A stretch of 34,395 nt of DNA from Fluviicola sp. (GTDB lineage Bacteria; Bacteroidota; Bacteroidia; Flavobacteriales_D; Crocinitomicaceae). The stretch is from positions 39,584 through 73,978 of the forward strand of contig NVXV01000001.1 in assembly GCA_002734085.1 (NCBI GenBank), written 5' to 3'. Of the stretch, positions 10,922 to 32,924 are shown in pieces. Below the pieces are notes generated by a model that was given only the letters and a program-made list of their open reading frames with translations, was not told the origin of the DNA and made no database searches. Made by a program: the position numbers and the translations under genes. Each line of letters starts with the position of its first letter. Position 1 is the first letter of the stretch.

Positions 10922-12928
10922 ATGCGTCTTTTAATTTTTACTTTAATCGTTTGTAGTCAGTCCTTAGGTCAAGTTCATAATAGTATTTCTTCATTACTTG
11001 TTTCAAAAGGTAACCCGCCTGAGTTTTTAACCGAATACAGTTCACGTTTCTATATTCCTCAAAGCGAGCTTTGGATAAAAGGAATTAAAAACGACAAAAA
11101 AATGTTTTACCTGGATCAGGTTTATGCTTCAAAAATGGTTGTTTTTGGAGATCCCGTATCACAATATTGTACAGAGTTAATAAAGGAAATTACACCCCAT
11201 CAATATTCCGTTTTCCTAGTAAGAAGTGACGTCGTTGCTACATTTTCAGATTCCTCAAGCATATTCATTACATCTGGTCTAATTAGTCGGTTAAGTAATG
11301 AAGCCCAATTGGTGTTTTTTCTTTCGAGGGAAATTGAAGTTATCAAGGGGGGTTATGTTCCATTTTTTGAAAAAACAGAAAGTAAGACTTCTTTAAATAA
11401 TGCTATAACTGAATTATCTACTTATTCAGAAGAAGTAGATATTAAATTAGATAAAAAATCATTTGAGACTATAAAAAGTAAAGGGCTACATAGTAACAAA
11501 GAATTAATTAGTGCATTTGATGTATTAAAGTTTCAAAACAGACCTTTTTACGAATATAATTTCGATATAAAATACTTTAACAGCCAGTACTCATATATAC
11601 CAGAATCAAAGTTTTTTTTAATACATAAACCCAATCCTGAATATTATAATTATAAAAAGGAATTTCCACAACTTGCGAAGAGGATAAGCAACTTCGAGAG
11701 CTCAAATGAACCTTCTACAAGTTTTACCCTTCTCAATAGCAAGAAGAATTTTGAGCACATAGTAAATATTAGCCGCCACGAATCTGTGGTTATTAATATT
11801 CTGAAAGCTCGCTTTGTAGAAGCAATCTATGAAATTTACATGCTTGAAAAACTTGGTCATAACTCGCCTTTTTTAGGAAAATTAAAAGCTTCTGCGTGGT
11901 GGGGTTTTGTCAACCAATACACAGGAAATATTGAATTGAAAAACTATACTCCTTATGAAGTGTCAGACAGCAAAGGAGCCGTATTTATGCGTTTTCTTCG
12001 TATGCAGACAACAACAGCAAAAATCACTCTTGGATTGCGAACATTAAAAGATCTTCAAACTCAATATCCGGAGGATAGAGCTATTTCAAGGATGTTTGAT
12101 GATTTAATTTTAATATCTGCAGAATCTGTCGAATTTGAACTGGAATCATTTTACAAGACAGATCTAGTTTCATCAATTGAACAGTTTCGTTTAAAGGACT
12201 CTATTAAGTTAGATAATGATAATCTATTAGATGTAGACACACAGATAATTAATGCGAAAGGTGTAGACTCAGTAAATTATCATTTTTTCATGATTTCCGA
12301 TTTAATGAAAAGCAGTTCTTTCATTGAGAAATATAATTCATTCAAGACCGCTGAAAAAAGTAATGCAAAAACATCTCCTACCTCAGTTTCAATAACTGAA
12401 TTTGGTCTTGTCAATTATAAGAGTAATAAAATCAAACATGTCAATGATTATAATGAAATTGTTGAGGGAGCTTATAAAGTTGCAAACAGCAAAACAGAGA
12501 TTCAGGTATCACAATATAAGGCGGCAGAACAGTACAATCTAAATTATTTAATAAACTCCGTTTACATTCAAAATTATCATTACAGTAATTACAAGAAAGT
12601 TATGCACTCTCCTTTTTCCGAAGAGATTTCCAATTTATTAAATACCTGTGATACTGAAGTGGTGGGGGTTTGTATTTTCGAACAATCTTATGAGCCAAAA
12701 TATAGGCCTTTTCATTTGCTTGGATTATTAGGGATAACCCTACCCTATATCATACCAGAATTTTTCTTTTCTGGAAACAAAACTATTTACTCTTCTCTAT
12801 ATTTTAATGTTGTTAATGGAACAACTGAAGGTCTTATCTACAATCAATTTAATGATCCTTTCAATAAGCGTATCATCCAAGACTTATTCCTTAAATCATT
12901 ATTAAACACTTTTCCAAAACATGACTAA
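10922..12928 (+). CDS. Secreted protein with degenerate M48-peptidase-like domain
   Basis: This 668-residue exported protein has an N-terminal signal peptide (about 1-16, ending SLGQ). Residues about 96-142 follow the core of M48 peptidases: a strand (VFLVRSDVVATF), then SSSIFITSGLISRLSNEAQL, then a helix where the zinc motif HExxH should be. Here that motif reads REIEV (136-140): the glutamate is kept but both histidines are gone. On this evidence it is probably a catalytically dead homologue. The remaining 500 or so residues are polar, partly helical and unrecognised. The last 8 bases overlap the start of the barrel gene, implying coupled translation and a joint envelope role. An unrelated fold with chance similarity remains possible. 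Confidence 0.6.
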   Translation: MRLLIFTLIVCSQSLGQVHNSISSLLVSKGNPPEFLTEYSSRFYIPQSELWIKGIKNDKKMFYLDQVYASKMVVFGDPVSQYCTELIKEITPHQYSVFLVRSDVVATFSDSSSIFITSGLISRLSNEAQLVFFLSREIEVIKGGYVPFFEKTESKTSLNNAITELSTYSEEVDIKLDKKSFETIKSKGLHSNKELISAFDVLKFQNRPFYEYNFDIKYFNSQYSYIPESKFFLIHKPNPEYYNYKKEFPQLAKRISNFESSNEPSTSFTLLNSKKNFEHIVNISRHESVVINILKARFVEAIYEIYMLEKLGHNSPFLGKLKASAWWGFVNQYTGNIELKNYTPYEVSDSKGAVFMRFLRMQTTTAKITLGLRTLKDLQTQYPEDRAISRMFDDLILISAESVEFELESFYKTDLVSSIEQFRLKDSIKLDNDNLLDVDTQIINAKGVDSVNYHFFMISDLMKSSSFIEKYNSFKTAEKSNAKTSPTSVSITEFGLVNYKSNKIKHVNDYNEIVEGAYKVANSKTEIQVSQYKAAEQYNLNYLINSVYIQNYHYSNYKKVMHSPFSEEISNLLNTCDTEVVGVCIFEQSYEPKYRPFHLLGLLGITLPYIIPEFFFSGNKTIYSSLYFNVVNGTTEGLIYNQFNDPFNKRIIQDLFLKSLLNTFPKHD

Positions 12929-13730
12929 ATCACTATTAATTTACTTTGTAATCTTATCCTCAACCTCCTCTGCATTGGCTCAAAAAGGTTATATGGATCA
13001 TAAAAATTATTTTGATTTCAGCGCCTTCGGTAATGTACCGCTAGCGTCAGGCTCGTTCAATCAAACCGAATTTAAACCGAGTGGTGATAAAATGATAAAA
13101 TCTAGAGATTGGCTTGATTATGGTGCTTCTTTCAGTTATTACAGAGCAATGTCTAAATCGTTTAGTATGGGACTTATGTCTTCCTTTAAACACTATGAAT
13201 TATCTTTGCCTTCAAACTATACGTCTATCTATTCTTCACAGCACAACAGTTCTGTAGACACGACTTTAATACGATTTGAGTCATTAAGATATAGAAACTA
13301 CTACTTCGGCCCAACTTTTGAGTTTGCAAGCAAAAATGGCTCTTCTGGAATAGGCTTTACTTATGATTTATCTGTTGGTGCATCTATCTCTGTATTTAGA
13401 GATGGGGCTTACGGTTACTCTTTGAATGAATTTTCATTATCCGACAATGATGAAAATTGGACCAATTTGGATTACTATGAAACAGGGTTTGACTGGAAGA
13501 GTATTTACGGAGTATTTCTCCAAACAGGATTTAAAATAAGATATCCTTTTTCAGATTTCATGTCTTTTTATACGGGTTTTAGGTACACATTATTAGTTAA
13601 TTATAAACCAAAATCATTCATAGATAATGCCGATAAAAATATATTTAATGCGGAGGATGTATATTTTCAAATTCAAAGAGAAAATTTCTTTACGACTACA
13701 TTAGATTTTGGTCTTACATTTTACTTATAA
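12921..13730 (+). CDS. Probable outer-membrane beta-barrel protein
   Basis: The 269-residue product has a cleavable signal peptide (about 1-20, ending ALAQ) followed by alternating aromatic/polar segments typical of small outer-membrane barrels (GASFSYYRAMSK, YYFGPTFEF, TGFRYTLLVNY). It ends in FFTTTLDFGLTFYL, an aromatic beta-signal-like terminus. No family can be named. It overlaps the 3' end of the M48-like gene by 8 bases, so the pair forms an operon. It converges on the imelysin-family gene, with only 24 bases between the stops. Whether it is a channel, receptor or assembly factor cannot be told from the sequence. Confidence 0.75.
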   Translation: MTKSLLIYFVILSSTSSALAQKGYMDHKNYFDFSAFGNVPLASGSFNQTEFKPSGDKMIKSRDWLDYGASFSYYRAMSKSFSMGLMSSFKHYELSLPSNYTSIYSSQHNSSVDTTLIRFESLRYRNYYFGPTFEFASKNGSSGIGFTYDLSVGASISVFRDGAYGYSLNEFSLSDNDENWTNLDYYETGFDWKSIYGVFLQTGFKIRYPFSDFMSFYTGFRYTLLVNYKPKSFIDNADKNIFNAEDVYFQIQRENFFTTTLDFGLTFYL

Positions 13731-20945: not shown

Positions 20946-22628
20946 TTACTTGCTTAATAGCTTGAAGTCAATTCTACGATTCACTTCTTTGCCGTACTGA
21001 TACTTATTAGACATAATCGGAAATTCTGAACCGTATCCTTTAAAAGATATTTGATTCTTAGAAACACCTTTTGTAATCAAATAATTATAAATCGCTTCAG
21101 ATCTCTGCTCGGAAAGTAAGAGGTTCAACTCTTCTAAGCCTGATTTATCCGTATGGCCTTGTATCTCCCCTTTTACCCTGGGATTTTCTTTTAAGAATTT
21201 TACCAGTTTGTCTAAATCCGACTGTGCCTCCTCTGGGACATCCACCATGTTTGGTTCATAATCTACAGAAGATATTGTCAAACTTGAACCCGTCTCGACA
21301 CTTTCTATATCATCAAACAACACCTCCAAAGTTTGTTGTTTATTCAAGTTATCCCCGTCCTCAGTAATTGGTTCACCGCCCGACTCTTCTATTAGCTTAG
21401 AATAATCCTCTTTCGCTTTATCAATAATCTTTACCTCTATCCTACGGTTTCCTTCTCGAGTAGAACTATACCTATTACTATATAAAGGTCTTTTTGGCCC
21501 ATAACCTTTGTATGTTATTCTATCTTGGTCTATCCCCTTACTTAGTAAAAAATCATATACGAATTTTGCTCTCTTTTTGGATAGTTCAATATTTTTTGAT
21601 GTAGAACCTACGTTATCCGTATAACCACCAAGCTCTACTTTTAATTCTGGTTGATCATTTAACGCTTTCAACAAATTGATTAAATCAACGTTTTCTTCAG
21701 GTCTTGAGAATGATGTTTGTCCAGAACCAAAGCTTACATTATGCAATACAATTGAAAAACCTACTGGCAAGCTCTCTGGAACATATACCAAATGTTCAAC
21801 ATCAACATACAATTCCGCTGAATCAATGTCTTTAGGCATCGGTGGACAAATGGCATTACCCAATGAGTCTGTAATCATCAGGTCTTCATAAGGTTCAAAA
21901 TCTTTGATCATTTCACGAATCTTCTGATATCTTGGGGAATTATTCGCACCATCTGTACCAAGGTCCCAATAGTTGATCGCTTCCCATTTGTCATAACCAC
22001 AAAACTGACGTAATGTTAGAGCTGCAAAAAGTCCTGACGCATGCCACCCATTCCAACAATGCATATAAACAGGACCAACTGTGTCATTAGTAGCAGCATT
22101 ATAAACTAATTTTAATGCTTCATAAATATGTTCTTTATCGAAATAATCGAGCTGATAATAATCTAAATCATTCCAACCTCCGTGTATACACCCACAAGTA
22201 TCGTTTAAAGGTGCTGTATCAAAGTTTTCTCGATATAGATAAATTGAAGCTGAAAATCCTTCTTGACATAAGTTTCGGATGCCATCATCAGGCAGTGGGT
22301 TGTGATTATTCCGTTTATTCTCTTTGTGAAAGTAATTATTTCCCCCTCCTCTATAAGCAACACCATGTAGAATAGGTCTTAAATTTCTTGTTCCGTACAA
22401 TGAATCGAAACCGTTTCCATAATTGTCCGTTATTTTATACATCAAGTCCTCCTCGACATATCTTTTTTTGTAAAACTCGGGAGTCAAATAAAAATCTGGA
22501 TCCAATGAAAGGATAGAATCTTTAAACTTTTCAGCTGGAGACTTTTCATCAATGCTAAGCGAATCATCTTGCGCAAATAACGTAAAACTTAATACTATCG
22601 GTAATAAAACAATTTTGAATTTCTGCAT
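20946..22628 (-). CDS. Phosphatase-like domain fused to two OmpA domains
   Basis: This 560-residue envelope protein has a signal peptide (1-20, ending LFAQ). Residues about 80-245 look like a dual-specificity/tyrosine phosphatase fold: LHGVAYRGGGNNYF, then GIRNLCQEGFSASIYL, then the P-loop VYMHCWNGWHASG. The cysteine (C191) is present, but the arginine expected at C+6 is alanine (A197), so normal phosphatase chemistry is unlikely. Two OmpA-type peptidoglycan-binding domains follow (about 285-402 and 448-560), each keeping the diaminopimelate-binding Asp and Arg (D338/R395 and D494/R551). It is likely periplasmic and bound to the cell wall, perhaps sensing or binding a phosphorylated ligand. 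It appears monocistronic, with a -7 box only four bases before the ATG. Confidence 0.75.
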   Translation of the reverse strand: MQKFKIVLLPIVLSFTLFAQDDSLSIDEKSPAEKFKDSILSLDPDFYLTPEFYKKRYVEEDLMYKITDNYGNGFDSLYGTRNLRPILHGVAYRGGGNNYFHKENKRNNHNPLPDDGIRNLCQEGFSASIYLYRENFDTAPLNDTCGCIHGGWNDLDYYQLDYFDKEHIYEALKLVYNAATNDTVGPVYMHCWNGWHASGLFAALTLRQFCGYDKWEAINYWDLGTDGANNSPRYQKIREMIKDFEPYEDLMITDSLGNAICPPMPKDIDSAELYVDVEHLVYVPESLPVGFSIVLHNVSFGSGQTSFSRPEENVDLINLLKALNDQPELKVELGGYTDNVGSTSKNIELSKKRAKFVYDFLLSKGIDQDRITYKGYGPKRPLYSNRYSSTREGNRRIEVKIIDKAKEDYSKLIEESGGEPITEDGDNLNKQQTLEVLFDDIESVETGSSLTISSVDYEPNMVDVPEEAQSDLDKLVKFLKENPRVKGEIQGHTDKSGLEELNLLLSEQRSEAIYNYLITKGVSKNQISFKGYGSEFPIMSNKYQYGKEVNRRIDFKLLSK

Positions 22629-28805: not shown

Positions 28806-29666
28806 TTATTGTTTTTTTAAATATTTAACCCATATTAATCCCATCAATAGTAATGTTGATGGGATTGTTATTTCAGAATGTACCGATTCCATCCACTCTG
28901 GAAAGTTCTCGTTTCTTAACCAATATACATTTAGAGCGTTATTTAAAGAGTGTAATACAACTCCTGGCCAAACACTCCCAGAAACATGATACATCAGAGC
29001 TAGCGCTATTCCAAATGCCATTATCGGAATGAACTGGATGTAATTAAAGTGGAGTAAAGCAAAGACAAAAGCGCTTCCTAAAACACTAAGCCATAGTTTA
29101 TTCGTATGCACCAACATATGACGAAATAAAAACCTTCTAAACGCAAATTCTTCAGCTATTCCGGTTACAACTCCAATAACGATAATTGCAATTACATACG
29201 CCTCAAATGAAGCATTCTTGCCAATTAATCGCACCAGTTGTGCGTCTGAAAACTGTTTTTCTTGTACCAAAACTTCATAAACACCTAAATACTGTGTTAT
29301 AGACTCATTTATTAATTCAAAAAATGGCAATAGTAAAAATGCCGATATGAAAAGGAGAATCGACCAAGCCACCCATATGAATGATCGAGTTTGGAAAAAG
29401 ATAGAATGTTTATTTCTGGTTATCAGGAAATAAATTAATCCAGGCGTCAGTAAAAATCCCAATTGAAAAGGTAGGAAATATAAAAACATAAACTGTACTG
29501 GGTAATTGTCATACAGAACATCCAGGTTATTTGTCGGGATTTCTGGGTAGACTGCCGTAACGACCAGAATTGAAATAATGTTAATTAACACAAAAGAAAT
29601 TCCTCCGATCAGGATAAAAACAATGATTTGAGTAAAAGGAGTAAGACTATTAATTCTATCTTTCAT
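28806..29666 (-). CDS. CPBP-family intramembrane metalloprotease
   Basis: This 286-residue multi-pass membrane protein belongs to the CPBP (CAAX protease and bacteriocin-processing, Abi) family. The catalytic motifs are complete: EExxxRR (E172, E173, R177, R178 in GIAEEFAFRRFLF), FxxxH (H206 in VFALLHFN) and HxxxN (H239, N243 in VLHSLNNAL). About eight membrane helices are predicted. Its start overlaps the rodA stop by four bases (ATGA), so it is the last gene of the mreBCD-mrdA-rodA operon. Family members cleave prenylated or membrane-bound substrates or act in bacteriocin immunity. A role in cell-wall elongation is only suggested by position. Confidence 0.9.
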   Translation of the reverse strand: MKDRINSLTPFTQIIVFILIGGISFVLINIISILVVTAVYPEIPTNNLDVLYDNYPVQFMFLYFLPFQLGFLLTPGLIYFLITRNKHSIFFQTRSFIWVAWSILLFISAFLLLPFFELINESITQYLGVYEVLVQEKQFSDAQLVRLIGKNASFEAYVIAIIVIGVVTGIAEEFAFRRFLFRHMLVHTNKLWLSVLGSAFVFALLHFNYIQFIPIMAFGIALALMYHVSGSVWPGVVLHSLNNALNVYWLRNENFPEWMESVHSEITIPSTLLLMGLIWVKYLKKQ

Positions 29667-31063
29667 AATAGTACTTCTTTTCTTTGACTATCTAATTTCA
29701 AAAGAATAAAAATCATCATTAAAAACGCCATCATAGAAGAACCTCCATAACTAAAAAATGGCAGTGGGATCCCAATCACTGGAATCACACCTATATTCAT
29801 TCCAATATTTATTGCAAAATGATAAAAGATAATCATCAGAACTGAATAGGCGTAAACCCGGGCAAACCTACTTTTCTGCCGTTCCGCAATTATGACGAGT
29901 CGGATAAGTAACAATGTGAAAATGAATACAAGTGCAAAAGAGCCCATAAAGCCCCATTCTTCAGCATATACAGAGAAAATAAAGTCTGTTTCACTTTCAG
30001 GAACGTGTTGACTTCGGGGGCTAGAAAGTATTGCTTCTTGATAACCAATTCCAGAAAACCCTCCTGAACCAACTGCTGCCAAGGCACGATTTCTATTATA
30101 GTCTTTACCGTCTTTATCCTCAATTTTCCCCAACCAAAGATCAATTCTAACTTTTTGATGAGACTGTAATACATTTAAATATGTGTAAGAAATTGCACCT
30201 ACGAGGCTAACAGTTGAAAGGTAGACGATCAGTAAAATAGATGTAATTTTTCTTCGACTTCTCTGACCCAAAAGATTTCTACCCAAAACGAAACTAACGA
30301 CAAACAATAAACTTAATATGATCAATAACAAGCCCCACCCTGGTAGGTCGAATCCAGGTAAAAATGAAAAAGAGTGAGTCGATTCCGAAAAATAAAGTGT
30401 AATAATAGAAAAGAAAAGTACTACAAATAATACGGGGATAAAGTGTACCCCAACCCACGTTTGTTTAAATCTAAATCCTAACAAATTATTCAGTACATAA
30501 AGAATAATTGGATCAAATGTGATGCCCTCTCTATACATTACAAAGAAAAAAGCAGTAAACACCAAAAAGGTTCCAGTATCATTTTGAAGCAATATTAAAA
30601 ACATGGTAGAAAAAACCAGAGTAAGCACATAAAACACTGTCTTTTTTGACACTGTTTTTACCCTGCCTTGTGCAATTAAAAAACTCAGCATAAGCGCCGT
30701 AGTTAATTTAGAAAACTCGGATGGTTGAATTCCAAATGGTCCAATTCCCAACCAAGATCGAGCTCCATTTATCGGTTTTGTAAAAAGCACTGCTATCAAT
30801 AAAATAACAACAACAATAAAGGCTATGGGTGTTAGTTTTCTAATATACTCTCCATCAATCAGTGAAGCCACGATTCCTAAGAACAATCCAAAGCCAATCC
30901 ACATCAGCTGTTTCCCATACAAAGTACCAAAATCAAAAAGAAATGGTCTTTCAGGATTATAAGCCGCCGAATACAAATTAGTCACACCCATAACTATCAT
31001 CACAAGAACAATAATCGTTGTCCACCAATCCCACTGTATCTCTTTTGTTAAACTTCTACTCAT
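29663..31063 (-). CDS. rodA: Peptidoglycan glycosyltransferase RodA (SEDS)
   Basis: RodA is the SEDS-family polymerase that builds glycan strands from lipid II for lateral wall growth, paired with PBP2. The 466-residue protein has about ten membrane helices. Key motifs: GARSWLGIGPFGIQPSEFSK (the SEDS substrate-site block), LLQNDTGTFLVF (ND in place of the PD seen in proteobacteria), VPESETDFIFSVYAEEWGF with the putative catalytic aspartate D360, and IPLPFFSYGGSSM at the end. It is longer than E. coli RodA (about 370) because of an enlarged periplasmic/cytoplasmic middle (about 205-275). Its start overlaps mrdA by eight bases. FtsW is unlikely given the mre/mrd context. Confidence 0.95.
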   Translation of the reverse strand: MSRSLTKEIQWDWWTTIIVLVMIVMGVTNLYSAAYNPERPFLFDFGTLYGKQLMWIGFGLFLGIVASLIDGEYIRKLTPIAFIVVVILLIAVLFTKPINGARSWLGIGPFGIQPSEFSKLTTALMLSFLIAQGRVKTVSKKTVFYVLTLVFSTMFLILLQNDTGTFLVFTAFFFVMYREGITFDPIILYVLNNLLGFRFKQTWVGVHFIPVLFVVLFFSIITLYFSESTHSFSFLPGFDLPGWGLLLIILSLLFVVSFVLGRNLLGQRSRRKITSILLIVYLSTVSLVGAISYTYLNVLQSHQKVRIDLWLGKIEDKDGKDYNRNRALAAVGSGGFSGIGYQEAILSSPRSQHVPESETDFIFSVYAEEWGFMGSFALVFIFTLLLIRLVIIAERQKSRFARVYAYSVLMIIFYHFAINIGMNIGVIPVIGIPLPFFSYGGSSMMAFLMMIFILLKLDSQRKEVLL

Positions 31064-32924
31064 TTATAAAATCTCCTTCAAGTATTCTTTGTTCCTTGCG
31101 TTTATCTGAAATTTCACCTTTCAAATATTTTTCTATCATCAAGCTTGCAATTGGTGCTGCCCAAGTACCTCCAAAACCAGCATTTTCAACAAAAACGGCT
31201 ATTGCTATTTGTGGATTATCTAAAGGAGCAAATGCCATAAAAACAGAATGATCCTCTCCATGTGGATTTTGAGAAGTTCCTGTTTTTCCTGAGACAACAA
31301 TATCTTTAAGCCTCGCTCTACGCGCCGTTCCTCCTGGTTCATTCACAACTCGTCGCATTCCCTCCACAATAACGTCAAAATGCTTTGAATTTACCATGGT
31401 TTTCTTCTTCACATTGAACTGAGGTAAAGGTCCTGAATGTCCAATACTACTTACCAGATGTGGCTCATAATAATATCCTCTATTTGCAATAATTGCAGCG
31501 AGATTTGCCATTTGTAAAGGCGTAACTTTAACCTCTCCCTGACCAATACTATTTGACCGAATTGTTGAAAAGGCCCATCTGTATTCCCCATACCAGCGAT
31601 TGTAATACGCAACATTTGGAATAACTCCCCCTCGAAGCCCATAAATGTCTGTCTCAGGCTTTACACCAAGACCAAAACTATTCATATATCTTTCCCAAAC
31701 GGATAAACCTATAGCAGCATCCTTGTAAATACTAGGGTCTTTCCCTTGCTGAATAATTCTTTTGGCTTCGTAATAAAAATAAGGATTACAGGAAAATTGG
31801 ATCGCTTGCTGAATATTCTGTGCGGTTGGGTGATTATGACATCCCACCAAATTCTTATTGCACGGAAAACTCGTATTCTCAGTGATAACTTCTTCCTGAA
31901 GACCTATTAGCGCTTGAACTGTTTTAAATATAGAGCCAGGCGGGTATTCTGCTGCCAAGGGTCTGGGATAAAAAGGTTTCAATGTATCTTTATTCAACTC
32001 CTGATAATTTTTTCTAATATTTCGGGTTCCCACCATTAAATTAGGATCGTAAGATGGTGCACTAACCATAGCAAGTATTTCCCCAGTTGAAGGTTCTATT
32101 GCTACAATTGCTCCTAATTTATTTTGCATCAATAACTCTCCATAAGCCTGAAGCTCTATATCAATACCCAGATAAAGTGCAGGACCTTGTATGGCCGTTG
32201 TGTCCATTTTACCTTCTGCAAAATTATCGACTACTTTACCCCTAGCTGAAGACAGAATAAATCGAGTTCCCTTTTGACCTCTAAGTTCTTTTTCGTAATA
32301 ACGTTCCAATCCCGCACGTCCTATAAAATCTCCTACATTATAAAAATTTCTATCTGCATTTAGCTCGTGTGGTCTTATCTCATTTAAATAACCAAAAATG
32401 TTTCCACCATGTGGGTGGGGATAATCTCTCATACTAATAGGTTCCTCAAAAAATCCAGAGAAATTATTTAAATCAATTGCCATTTTCGCGATTTCGTCAG
32501 CAGAAAGTTCTCTTAGGAATGCATAAGGTAAATACGAGCGGTAGTCGTTAACAACGGTATCGTTTCCCGTAGCTTTACTTTTGGTTTTACGGTCAAGGCT
32601 TTTCCGAATTTCTTCAAATCTAACTTCAACAGAATCAGGATGTATTCCAACAAGTTCAGCAAATGCTATTGTATCTAGGTCCTCAATATCATCTTCTACA
32701 AACATCAGATTGTAGTACGTTTTATTTGCTACGATTTTTTTTCCATTACGATCATAAAGAATTCCGCGAGGTGGTTTAATCTCAATTTTCTTTTTAGAAA
32801 CCTCAGCAGCTCGTTCAATCCACTTATCATCAACCACCTGCATATAGAAAAGACGAGCACTGAAAATAATTCCAACAATGACAAACATTACTAGAAATAC
32901 AATGCGACGACCCTCAAGATTCAT
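31056..32924 (-). CDS. mrdA: Penicillin-binding protein 2 (elongasome transpeptidase)
   Basis: PBP2 is the monofunctional class B transpeptidase that crosslinks new peptidoglycan with RodA during elongation. The 622-residue protein has an N-terminal membrane anchor (about 7-27), the PBP dimer/pedestal domain (about 45-235, with PPRGILYDRNG) and the transpeptidase domain (about 255-605). Active-site motifs are complete: SIFK (S331 nucleophile, K334), SCN in QFSCNPYFYYE, and KTGT (K547-T550). It overlaps mreD by four bases upstream and rodA by eight bases downstream, giving tight translational coupling. Length and motifs match MrdA rather than FtsI, and there is no PASTA domain. Confidence 0.95.
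   Translation of the reverse strand: MNLEGRRIVFLVMFVIVGIIFSARLFYMQVVDDKWIERAAEVSKKKIEIKPPRGILYDRNGKKIVANKTYYNLMFVEDDIEDLDTIAFAELVGIHPDSVEVRFEEIRKSLDRKTKSKATGNDTVVNDYRSYLPYAFLRELSADEIAKMAIDLNNFSGFFEEPISMRDYPHPHGGNIFGYLNEIRPHELNADRNFYNVGDFIGRAGLERYYEKELRGQKGTRFILSSARGKVVDNFAEGKMDTTAIQGPALYLGIDIELQAYGELLMQNKLGAIVAIEPSTGEILAMVSAPSYDPNLMVGTRNIRKNYQELNKDTLKPFYPRPLAAEYPPGSIFKTVQALIGLQEEVITENTSFPCNKNLVGCHNHPTAQNIQQAIQFSCNPYFYYEAKRIIQQGKDPSIYKDAAIGLSVWERYMNSFGLGVKPETDIYGLRGGVIPNVAYYNRWYGEYRWAFSTIRSNSIGQGEVKVTPLQMANLAAIIANRGYYYEPHLVSSIGHSGPLPQFNVKKKTMVNSKHFDVIVEGMRRVVNEPGGTARRARLKDIVVSGKTGTSQNPHGEDHSVFMAFAPLDNPQIAIAVFVENAGFGGTWAAPIASLMIEKYLKGEISDKRKEQRILEGDFINE

Follow-up and report, generated by a model that had tools for sequence, protein, structure and literature searches.

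A cysteine-retaining, arginine-less phosphatase-fold domain fused to OmpA domains in Fluviicola sp. and its association with CotH-family genes

The window analyzed here is a stretch of 34,395 nucleotides from Fluviicola sp. (contig NVXV01000001.1), whose genome (G000) comprises 4.03 Mb in 36 contigs. According to the ORF list and its translation, an open reading frame at positions 20946..22628 on the minus strand encodes a protein of 560 amino acids with a signal-like start, a domain resembling dual-specificity phosphatases (DSP), and two OmpA domains. Residues 1-19 (22572..22628, minus strand) were read from the translation as a signal-peptide-like N-terminus; the sequence MQKFKIVLLPIVLSFTLFAQ resembles a cleavable signal peptide when examined by eye, in agreement with the initial annotation, and suggests that the protein is exported. 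The first OmpA domain covers residues from about 296 to 401 (21426..21743, minus strand) with the ligand residues D338 and R395, and the second covers residues 458-551 (20976..21257, minus strand) with the ligand residues D494 and R551. Both domains had been described as intact, and the positions are confirmed by Pfam and by alignment: the OmpA model matches two stretches, and the protein as a whole scores 122.2 bits (cut-off 27.2). Each of the four ligand residues is kept in 25 of the 26 aligned proteins of the window's set, the sole exception being L036, which has LysM instead. The intact ligand residues suggest that the protein is anchored to the cell wall.

Elsewhere in the window, genes for an Rce1-like protease, RodA/FtsW, and a PBP-type transpeptidase follow each other at 28806-32924 on the minus strand and form a cell-shape cluster. 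Two adjacent genes at 10922-13730 on the plus strand, encoding 668 and 269 amino acids, have no Pfam match.

The phosphatase-fold domain was delimited to residues 44-268 (21825..22499, minus strand) from alignments, an AlphaFold2 model, and Foldseek. On its own, the N-terminal half of the window copy matches no such domain in Pfam, and none was found among the 25 of 40 NCBIfam matches that were listed. The AlphaFold2 model of the domain, based on 53 sequences, has a mean pLDDT of 87.6 and a pTM of 0.84, and places the P-loop between a strand at 168-172 and a helix at 178-191 (model numbering, to which 19 is added to obtain protein numbering). A Foldseek search against the PDB gave 892 matches with E<=10, 18 of them with E<=0.001. 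The top entries were Cdc14, TpbA, DUSP23/VHZ, and PFA-DSP1, and the best 50 of the 892 matches were all PTP/DSP-type entries. The TM-score reached 0.68 over the target but only 0.44 over the query, which indicates that the common core does not cover the whole domain. When 53 relatives were scanned with Pfam, Y_phosphatase2 was matched in 24 and DSPc in 10 at E<=0.01 (best 2.7e-6), and one family member scored 17.8 bits against the DSPc cut-off of 33.5. Profile matches in the PDB were weak, with E-values of 0.057 or worse with alignment A2 and 0.031 or worse with alignment A1. The domain is thus predicted to have the PTP/DSP fold, as the initial annotation had proposed with the reservation that an unrelated structure would speak against it.

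The P-loop, H190-C191-W-N-G-W-H-A197-S-G199 (22032..22061, minus strand), was identified from the sequence and from alignments of homologs. The motif HCWNGWHASG begins at residue 190, and the residues of the previously noted MHCWNGWHASG, with the cysteine at C191 and A197 in the place of the arginine, are found at the positions given for them. HCWNGWH is identical in all 26 proteins located by whole-domain similarity in the relatives and the window; the next residue is A in 25 of them and Q in one. It is also identical in the five further proteins located by domain similarity in the phylum sample, where it is followed by Q in four and M in one. The arginine is consequently absent at position 197 in 31 of 31 Bacteroidota proteins that were located by domain similarity and not by the motif. 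Among the 25 Bdellovibrionota matches that were fetched, 21 have HCWNGWH, three have HCWYGVH, and one (L210) has no P-loop in the open frame; all 24 readable loops keep the C, W, and H and have no R. Position 197 is Q in 32, A in 20, and S in one of the 53 rows of the alignment, and over all sets the residue was seen as Q, A, S, or M and never as R. C191 is invariant in every set located by domain similarity, S198 is present in 52 of 53 rows, and W192, W195, and H196 are nearly invariant across the relatives. The homolog alignment that had been called for thus shows a cysteine conserved throughout and an arginine consistently absent.

Five weak matches in Bdellovibrionota (E 4.0e-5 to 5.9e-4) are Arg-bearing DSP-like proteins, and two of these (L211 and L212) read HCYGGMHRTG, which shows the expected place of the arginine in the loop. 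A long branch in the tree divides the Arg-less rows from four of the five Arg-bearing rows. The fifth, L215, which is 40% filled and has a very long branch, falls among the Arg-less rows, a placement that we judge to be an artefact. Three Bdellovibrionota proteins (L218, L208, and L209) are paralogs with HCWYGVHAS replacing HCWNGWHAS, all of which keep the cysteine and lack the arginine. From the conservation of these residues, the site appears to be retooled, not decayed. An ordinary active DSP was rejected because the arginine was never seen.

A second region of high conservation is located upstream of the P-loop. The motif Y92-R93-G-G-x-N97-N98 (22335..22355, minus strand) was recognized in the 53-row alignment as part of a conserved basic and polar patch, to which R81, N82, R84, K105, R106, N108, and N110 also belong. 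R81, N82, Y92, R93, G94, G95, N97, N98, R106, N108, and N110 are present in all 53 rows, R84 in 50, and K105 in 48. The far relatives L036, L042, L208, L209, and L218 preserve the patch only in part, with L036 carrying a Y at position 106. The HCWYGVH paralogs retain little of it, and L209 lacks R93. Further downstream, Q208, C210, Y220, and W221 are each found in 53 of 53 rows, and the alignments show that C210 and C261 are invariant besides C191.

The acid loop was placed at residues 160-164 by strand order in the AlphaFold2 model. Over the 53 rows, position 161 is S in 22, D in 15, and G in seven, and position 164 is D in 18, S in 12, and N in nine, so that the acid is not conserved over the whole alignment; the differences run along the clades. 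D161 is found in none of the 32 rows with Q at position 197 (Q-type) versus 15 of the 20 rows with A (A-type). In the window's own set, 25 of the 26 proteins have an aspartate at 161 as well as at 164, and the window protein may therefore retain a general acid. The aspartate pattern at the two positions suggests that the A-type and Q-type subfamilies may differ in chemistry.

For the family as a whole, 98 relatives were searched with residues 1-268, which located the domain in 25 (26 of 99 counting the window genome). The closest row to the window copy in the domain tree is from Lishizhenia tianjinensis (Crocinitomicaceae), with 81% identity. In a phylum sample of 395 genomes, the domain is present in six, the window genome included, and a profile search of the same sample gave nine genomes at E<=0.01, three of which (G126, G382, and G180) are weak Bacteroidota matches with E 2.5e-4 to 0.0095. 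Of 191 Bdellovibrionota genomes, 22 contain the domain at E below 1e-19, with 28 matches in all. A scan of the whole collection gave 163 pattern matches, 141 of them relatives, and 80 of these relatives were kept (L043-L122); the scan pattern was HCWNGWH itself, and these sequences are therefore uninformative on the invariance of the motif. Thirty-seven of the 80 are short-tailed, stand-alone proteins with Q in 30, A in six, and S in one at position 197, 41 are long-tailed with A in 26 and Q in 15, and two are intermediate. An OmpA profile built from the window protein matches all 43 tailed relatives, twice in 40 of them and once in three. Where OmpA is missing, a relative is either stand-alone or carries LysM, as in L036/L154, where CotH, LTD (below its cut-off), the domain, and LysM follow each other in one protein.

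A few individual loci deserve separate mention. In L114, the domain-OmpA frame ends early and a second OmpA-like frame follows directly, possibly because of a frameshift in the gene or in the assembly. The neighbors of L105 (labelled Saccharospirillaceae) and L059 (Desulfobulbaceae) resemble Bacteroidota/Ignavibacteria loci, suggesting that both may be mis-binned: L105 adjoins a gene like the RidA-like neighbor of L089, and the neighbor sizes of L059 equal those of L057. A fragment of the family (L123:20-217) lies at the extreme edge of one contig of the viral collection; spread by viruses was considered and set aside, this edge fragment being its sole trace.

The genes surrounding the domain point to a partner. 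Each of the 15 Q-type OmpA fusions is followed directly downstream by a CotH-family gene that adjoins it or shares 4 to 65 bases with it, with gene starts and overlaps approximate as they derive from simple ORF calls. Among these CotH frames, two measure just 193 and 210 amino acids, their contigs ending nearby; those of L077 and L083 are 606 and 612 amino acids long. The partner in L068, the only one of the 15 in which LTD was looked for, has Pfam CotH (2.7e-41), LTD, and a C-terminal hydrophobic segment. In G211, a CotH frame (Pfam 3e-41) in which Pfam found no LTD overlaps the start of the domain frame, and in G035, CotH and the domain are joined in the CotH-LTD-domain-LysM protein. The domain and CotH are thus found in three arrangements: as downstream neighbor, as overlapping upstream neighbor, and as fusion. 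CotH is next door in none of the 26 A-type OmpA fusions, which are of the window's type, and weaker CotH-like genes are present in the flanks of L090 and L096. No CotH-type gene was present in the examined flanks of the 30 Q-type stand-alone copies, and the stand-alone copies in Kapabacteria and Ignavibacteria showed no link to CotH. Twelve neighbors of nine loci in the stand-alone clade revealed no conserved neighbor, and, judged by their N-termini, these neighbors resemble housekeeping genes.

The window genome contains four CotH genes, none of which is beside the window ORF. One of them, at C25:436651-438954, matches the partner profile nearly full-length (Pfam CotH 2.6e-43) and is located about 360 kb from the window, after genes for an ECF sigma factor and a CHU_C-domain protein. 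The run at G000:C25 434963-439665 (L153:4964-9666) contains the ECF sigma factor, the CHU_C-domain protein, CotH-LTD, and a protein of 224 amino acids without a Pfam match in series. Judged by the protein ends, a similar run is found in three genomes of the same genus (L149-L151); the gene of 224-225 amino acids is separate in two of these, and in one a single frame of 998 amino acids seems to hold both.

Across genomes, the domain and the partner CotH also occur together. Among the 98 relatives, 24 have both, four have CotH only, one has the domain only, and 69 have neither (Fisher 1e-17), with the partner CotH defined at E<=1e-150, a cut-off picked after the values were seen. At the alternative cut-offs of 1e-165 and 1e-185, the corresponding numbers are 22/3/3/70 and 17/2/8/71, and by genus the table reads 15/1/1/30. 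The Fisher P values for CotH and the domain are inflated by kinship, and the partner profile includes the CotH of the window genome itself. The single domain-only genome is G035, the bearer of the CotH-domain fusion protein. The CotH gene without the domain is found in G001, G006, and G008, which are of the same genus, and in G024, which is 79% complete. The CotH matches in G072 and G079 span positions 7-573 and 8-583 of 757, the C-terminal part being absent, and in family f44 of the phylum sample only two of four genomes have a CotH match at E<=1e-60.

A different neighbor was identified in Bdellovibrionota, where four of the seven loci of the whole-collection scan adjoin a gene of one exported family (A4), which is present in all six Bdellovibrionota genomes tested. 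Among 191 Bdellovibrionota genomes, this family is present in 30, the domain in 22, and both in 17 (Fisher 2.7e-12). The two matches are 102-595 bases apart in 13 of the 17 genomes having both; since G491 and G493, two of the 13, supplied the A4 profile, 11 of 15 is the fairer figure. The family (A4/A5) consists of L157, L155, and 32 other Bdellovibrionota frames, with 18 aligned in A5, and its members are about 460 amino acids long with conserved Q-x-D-R-x-G-N and D-N-D-x-G motifs. D319-R320 and D373-N374-D375 are kept in all 34 aligned members, G322 in 32, and N323 in 33. These motifs resemble the D..GNIR and YDxDxG of CotH, which according to a review keeps residues equivalent to D166, N171, and D184 of PKA (PMC12189002). 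Profile searches against Pfam, NCBIfam, and PDB gave nothing convincing, and comparison with the CotH profile brought D..GNI and a DxDxG-like motif into register without significance (E 0.3, with 0.23 elsewhere). AlphaFold2, run on four rows, returned no usable fold (pLDDT 41.7). As no search gave a significant match, the kinase identity of this family is a lead based on motif resemblance.

Taking the predicted fold, the residue conservation, the gene link, and the co-occurrence together, we give an even chance to what we regard as the likeliest explanation, namely that the family represents Cys-dependent envelope enzymes that work with CotH and have a P-loop rebuilt on the DSP fold. The window protein would be exported and held to the peptidoglycan by its OmpA domains. 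In the rebuilt loop, C191 as the nucleophile, S198, and the frame of the loop are retained, A, Q, S, or M takes the place of the phosphate-binding arginine, and W192, N193, W195, and H196 would form a new, nearly invariant site with R81, N82, R93, N97, N98, R106, N108, and N110. D161 and D164 remain at the general-acid place in the window's clade, with the Q-type lacking Asp at 161. The activity would most likely be Cys-based envelope chemistry, directed either at a group other than phosphate or at a phosphoryl group that the upstream arginines hold. The enzyme of Flavobacteriales-type hosts would act together with an exported CotH-family kinase, and its substrate is probably what CotH modifies; the wall tether would keep it where the inner-membrane CotH and the substrates meet. 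Several results speak against this explanation: CotH is adjacent neither to the A-type OmpA fusions nor to the Q-type stand-alone copies, three genomes of one genus carry CotH but not the domain, the CotH counted in G072 and G079 is shortened, the Q-type has no Asp at 161, and the HCWYGVH paralogs preserve little of the upstream patch.

A tentative alternative, which we think could apply but doubt, is a non-catalytic reader or scaffold, in which a modified envelope protein, peptide, or sugar is bound in the pocket and the wall-held domain positions CotH or its products. In line with this, the arginine is gone everywhere and the general acid is gone in the Q-type, and the fusion to two kinds of wall-binding domains, OmpA and LysM, fits a tether. 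A link to kinases is also common among pseudoenzyme regulators (compare PMC10211241). However, no variation at C191 was seen in any set collected by domain similarity, and the Cys is missing from MK-STYX and the Arg is retained in STYX-domain proteins (PMC8269279), which is the reverse of what is seen here and makes the label pseudophosphatase of the initial annotation tentative. This reversal, together with a strictly conserved loop and several upstream arginines conserved in most members, favors Cys chemistry that acts on another group or uses a relocated cation, and the retained Cys and lost Arg fit altered chemistry better than a role in reading phosphate.

It is rather improbable that the protein is an envelope ligand-binding or redox protein independent of CotH, with the gene link reflecting shared regulation in some lineages. 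Stand-alone copies without a nearby CotH would agree with this, as would the invariant C210 and C261, which may pair in an oxidizing compartment, but the three different CotH arrangements and the near one-to-one co-occurrence with CotH argue against it. A decayed phosphatase or a chance likeness of the P-loop is very improbable: by itself the window copy gives no Pfam match for the domain and the PDB profile matches are weak, but the fold is predicted and the P-loop is nearly identical throughout Bacteroidota and Bdellovibrionota. Chance resemblance was ruled out by the predicted fold and the P-loop conservation, and the concern in the initial annotation that the motif might be a coincidence is answered by the predicted DSP fold, the Pfam matches in relatives, and HCWNGWH in 26 of 26 proteins.

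Returning to the Cys-dependent enzyme, it may possibly be part of a wider extracytoplasmic modification system, which we propose with some doubt, comprising an exported CotH-type kinase and a wall-tethered, Arg-independent Cys enzyme that would remove, transfer, or remodel what CotH installs. In Bdellovibrionota, the pairing would be with the other exported family with kinase-like motifs. A gene that travels with a kinase-like gene in several lineages hints at an undescribed envelope signaling pair. No paper with the HCWNGWH motif or the domain-CotH pairing was found among the open papers searched. PTP/DSP chemistry is regarded as dependent on the arginine of C-x5-R. A widespread family with the Cys in place, in which the Arg was never seen, is therefore a natural test of the fold without it. 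The tie to CotH would make protein modification in the Gram-negative periplasm testable with two genes, often in one operon, in marine hosts.

Compared with known systems, the domain shares the predicted fold and the order of elements with the DSP/PTP families (DSPc PF00782, Y_phosphatase2 PF03162, and Y_phosphatase3 PF13350), including the periplasmic TpbA and the plant and fungal PFA-DSP/Siw14. It also shares the HC..G...[ST]G frame of the P-loop, in which a His precedes the place of the Arg, as seen in HCYGGMHRTG. Unlike these families, it has no P-loop arginine, a general-acid Asp in only part of the family, W/N/W/H in the loop, and a large conserved upstream patch. STYX-type pseudophosphatases likewise have the PTP/DSP fold with an altered HCX5R motif. 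However, they are recognized by a lost Cys and an Arg kept to bind phosphate, and MK-STYX is described without the Cys and STYX proteins with the Arg (PMC8269279); in the family studied here the Cys is kept and the Arg is absent. With OmpA_C-like proteins (PF00691), the window protein shares two intact domains with the Asp/Arg ligand residues, but it differs from the others in that OmpA is fused to a phosphatase-fold domain. The partner gene belongs to the CotH atypical kinases (PF08757). In Bacillus, coat phosphorylation may be irreversible, with no phosphatase known late in the mother cell (PMC7821199), and in Gram-positives CotH-like genes are also described beside pel clusters, with other partners (PMC7112168). 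The partner CotH described here is exported, has LTD and a C-terminal hydrophobic segment, is found in Gram-negative hosts, and is paired with a phosphatase-fold protein.
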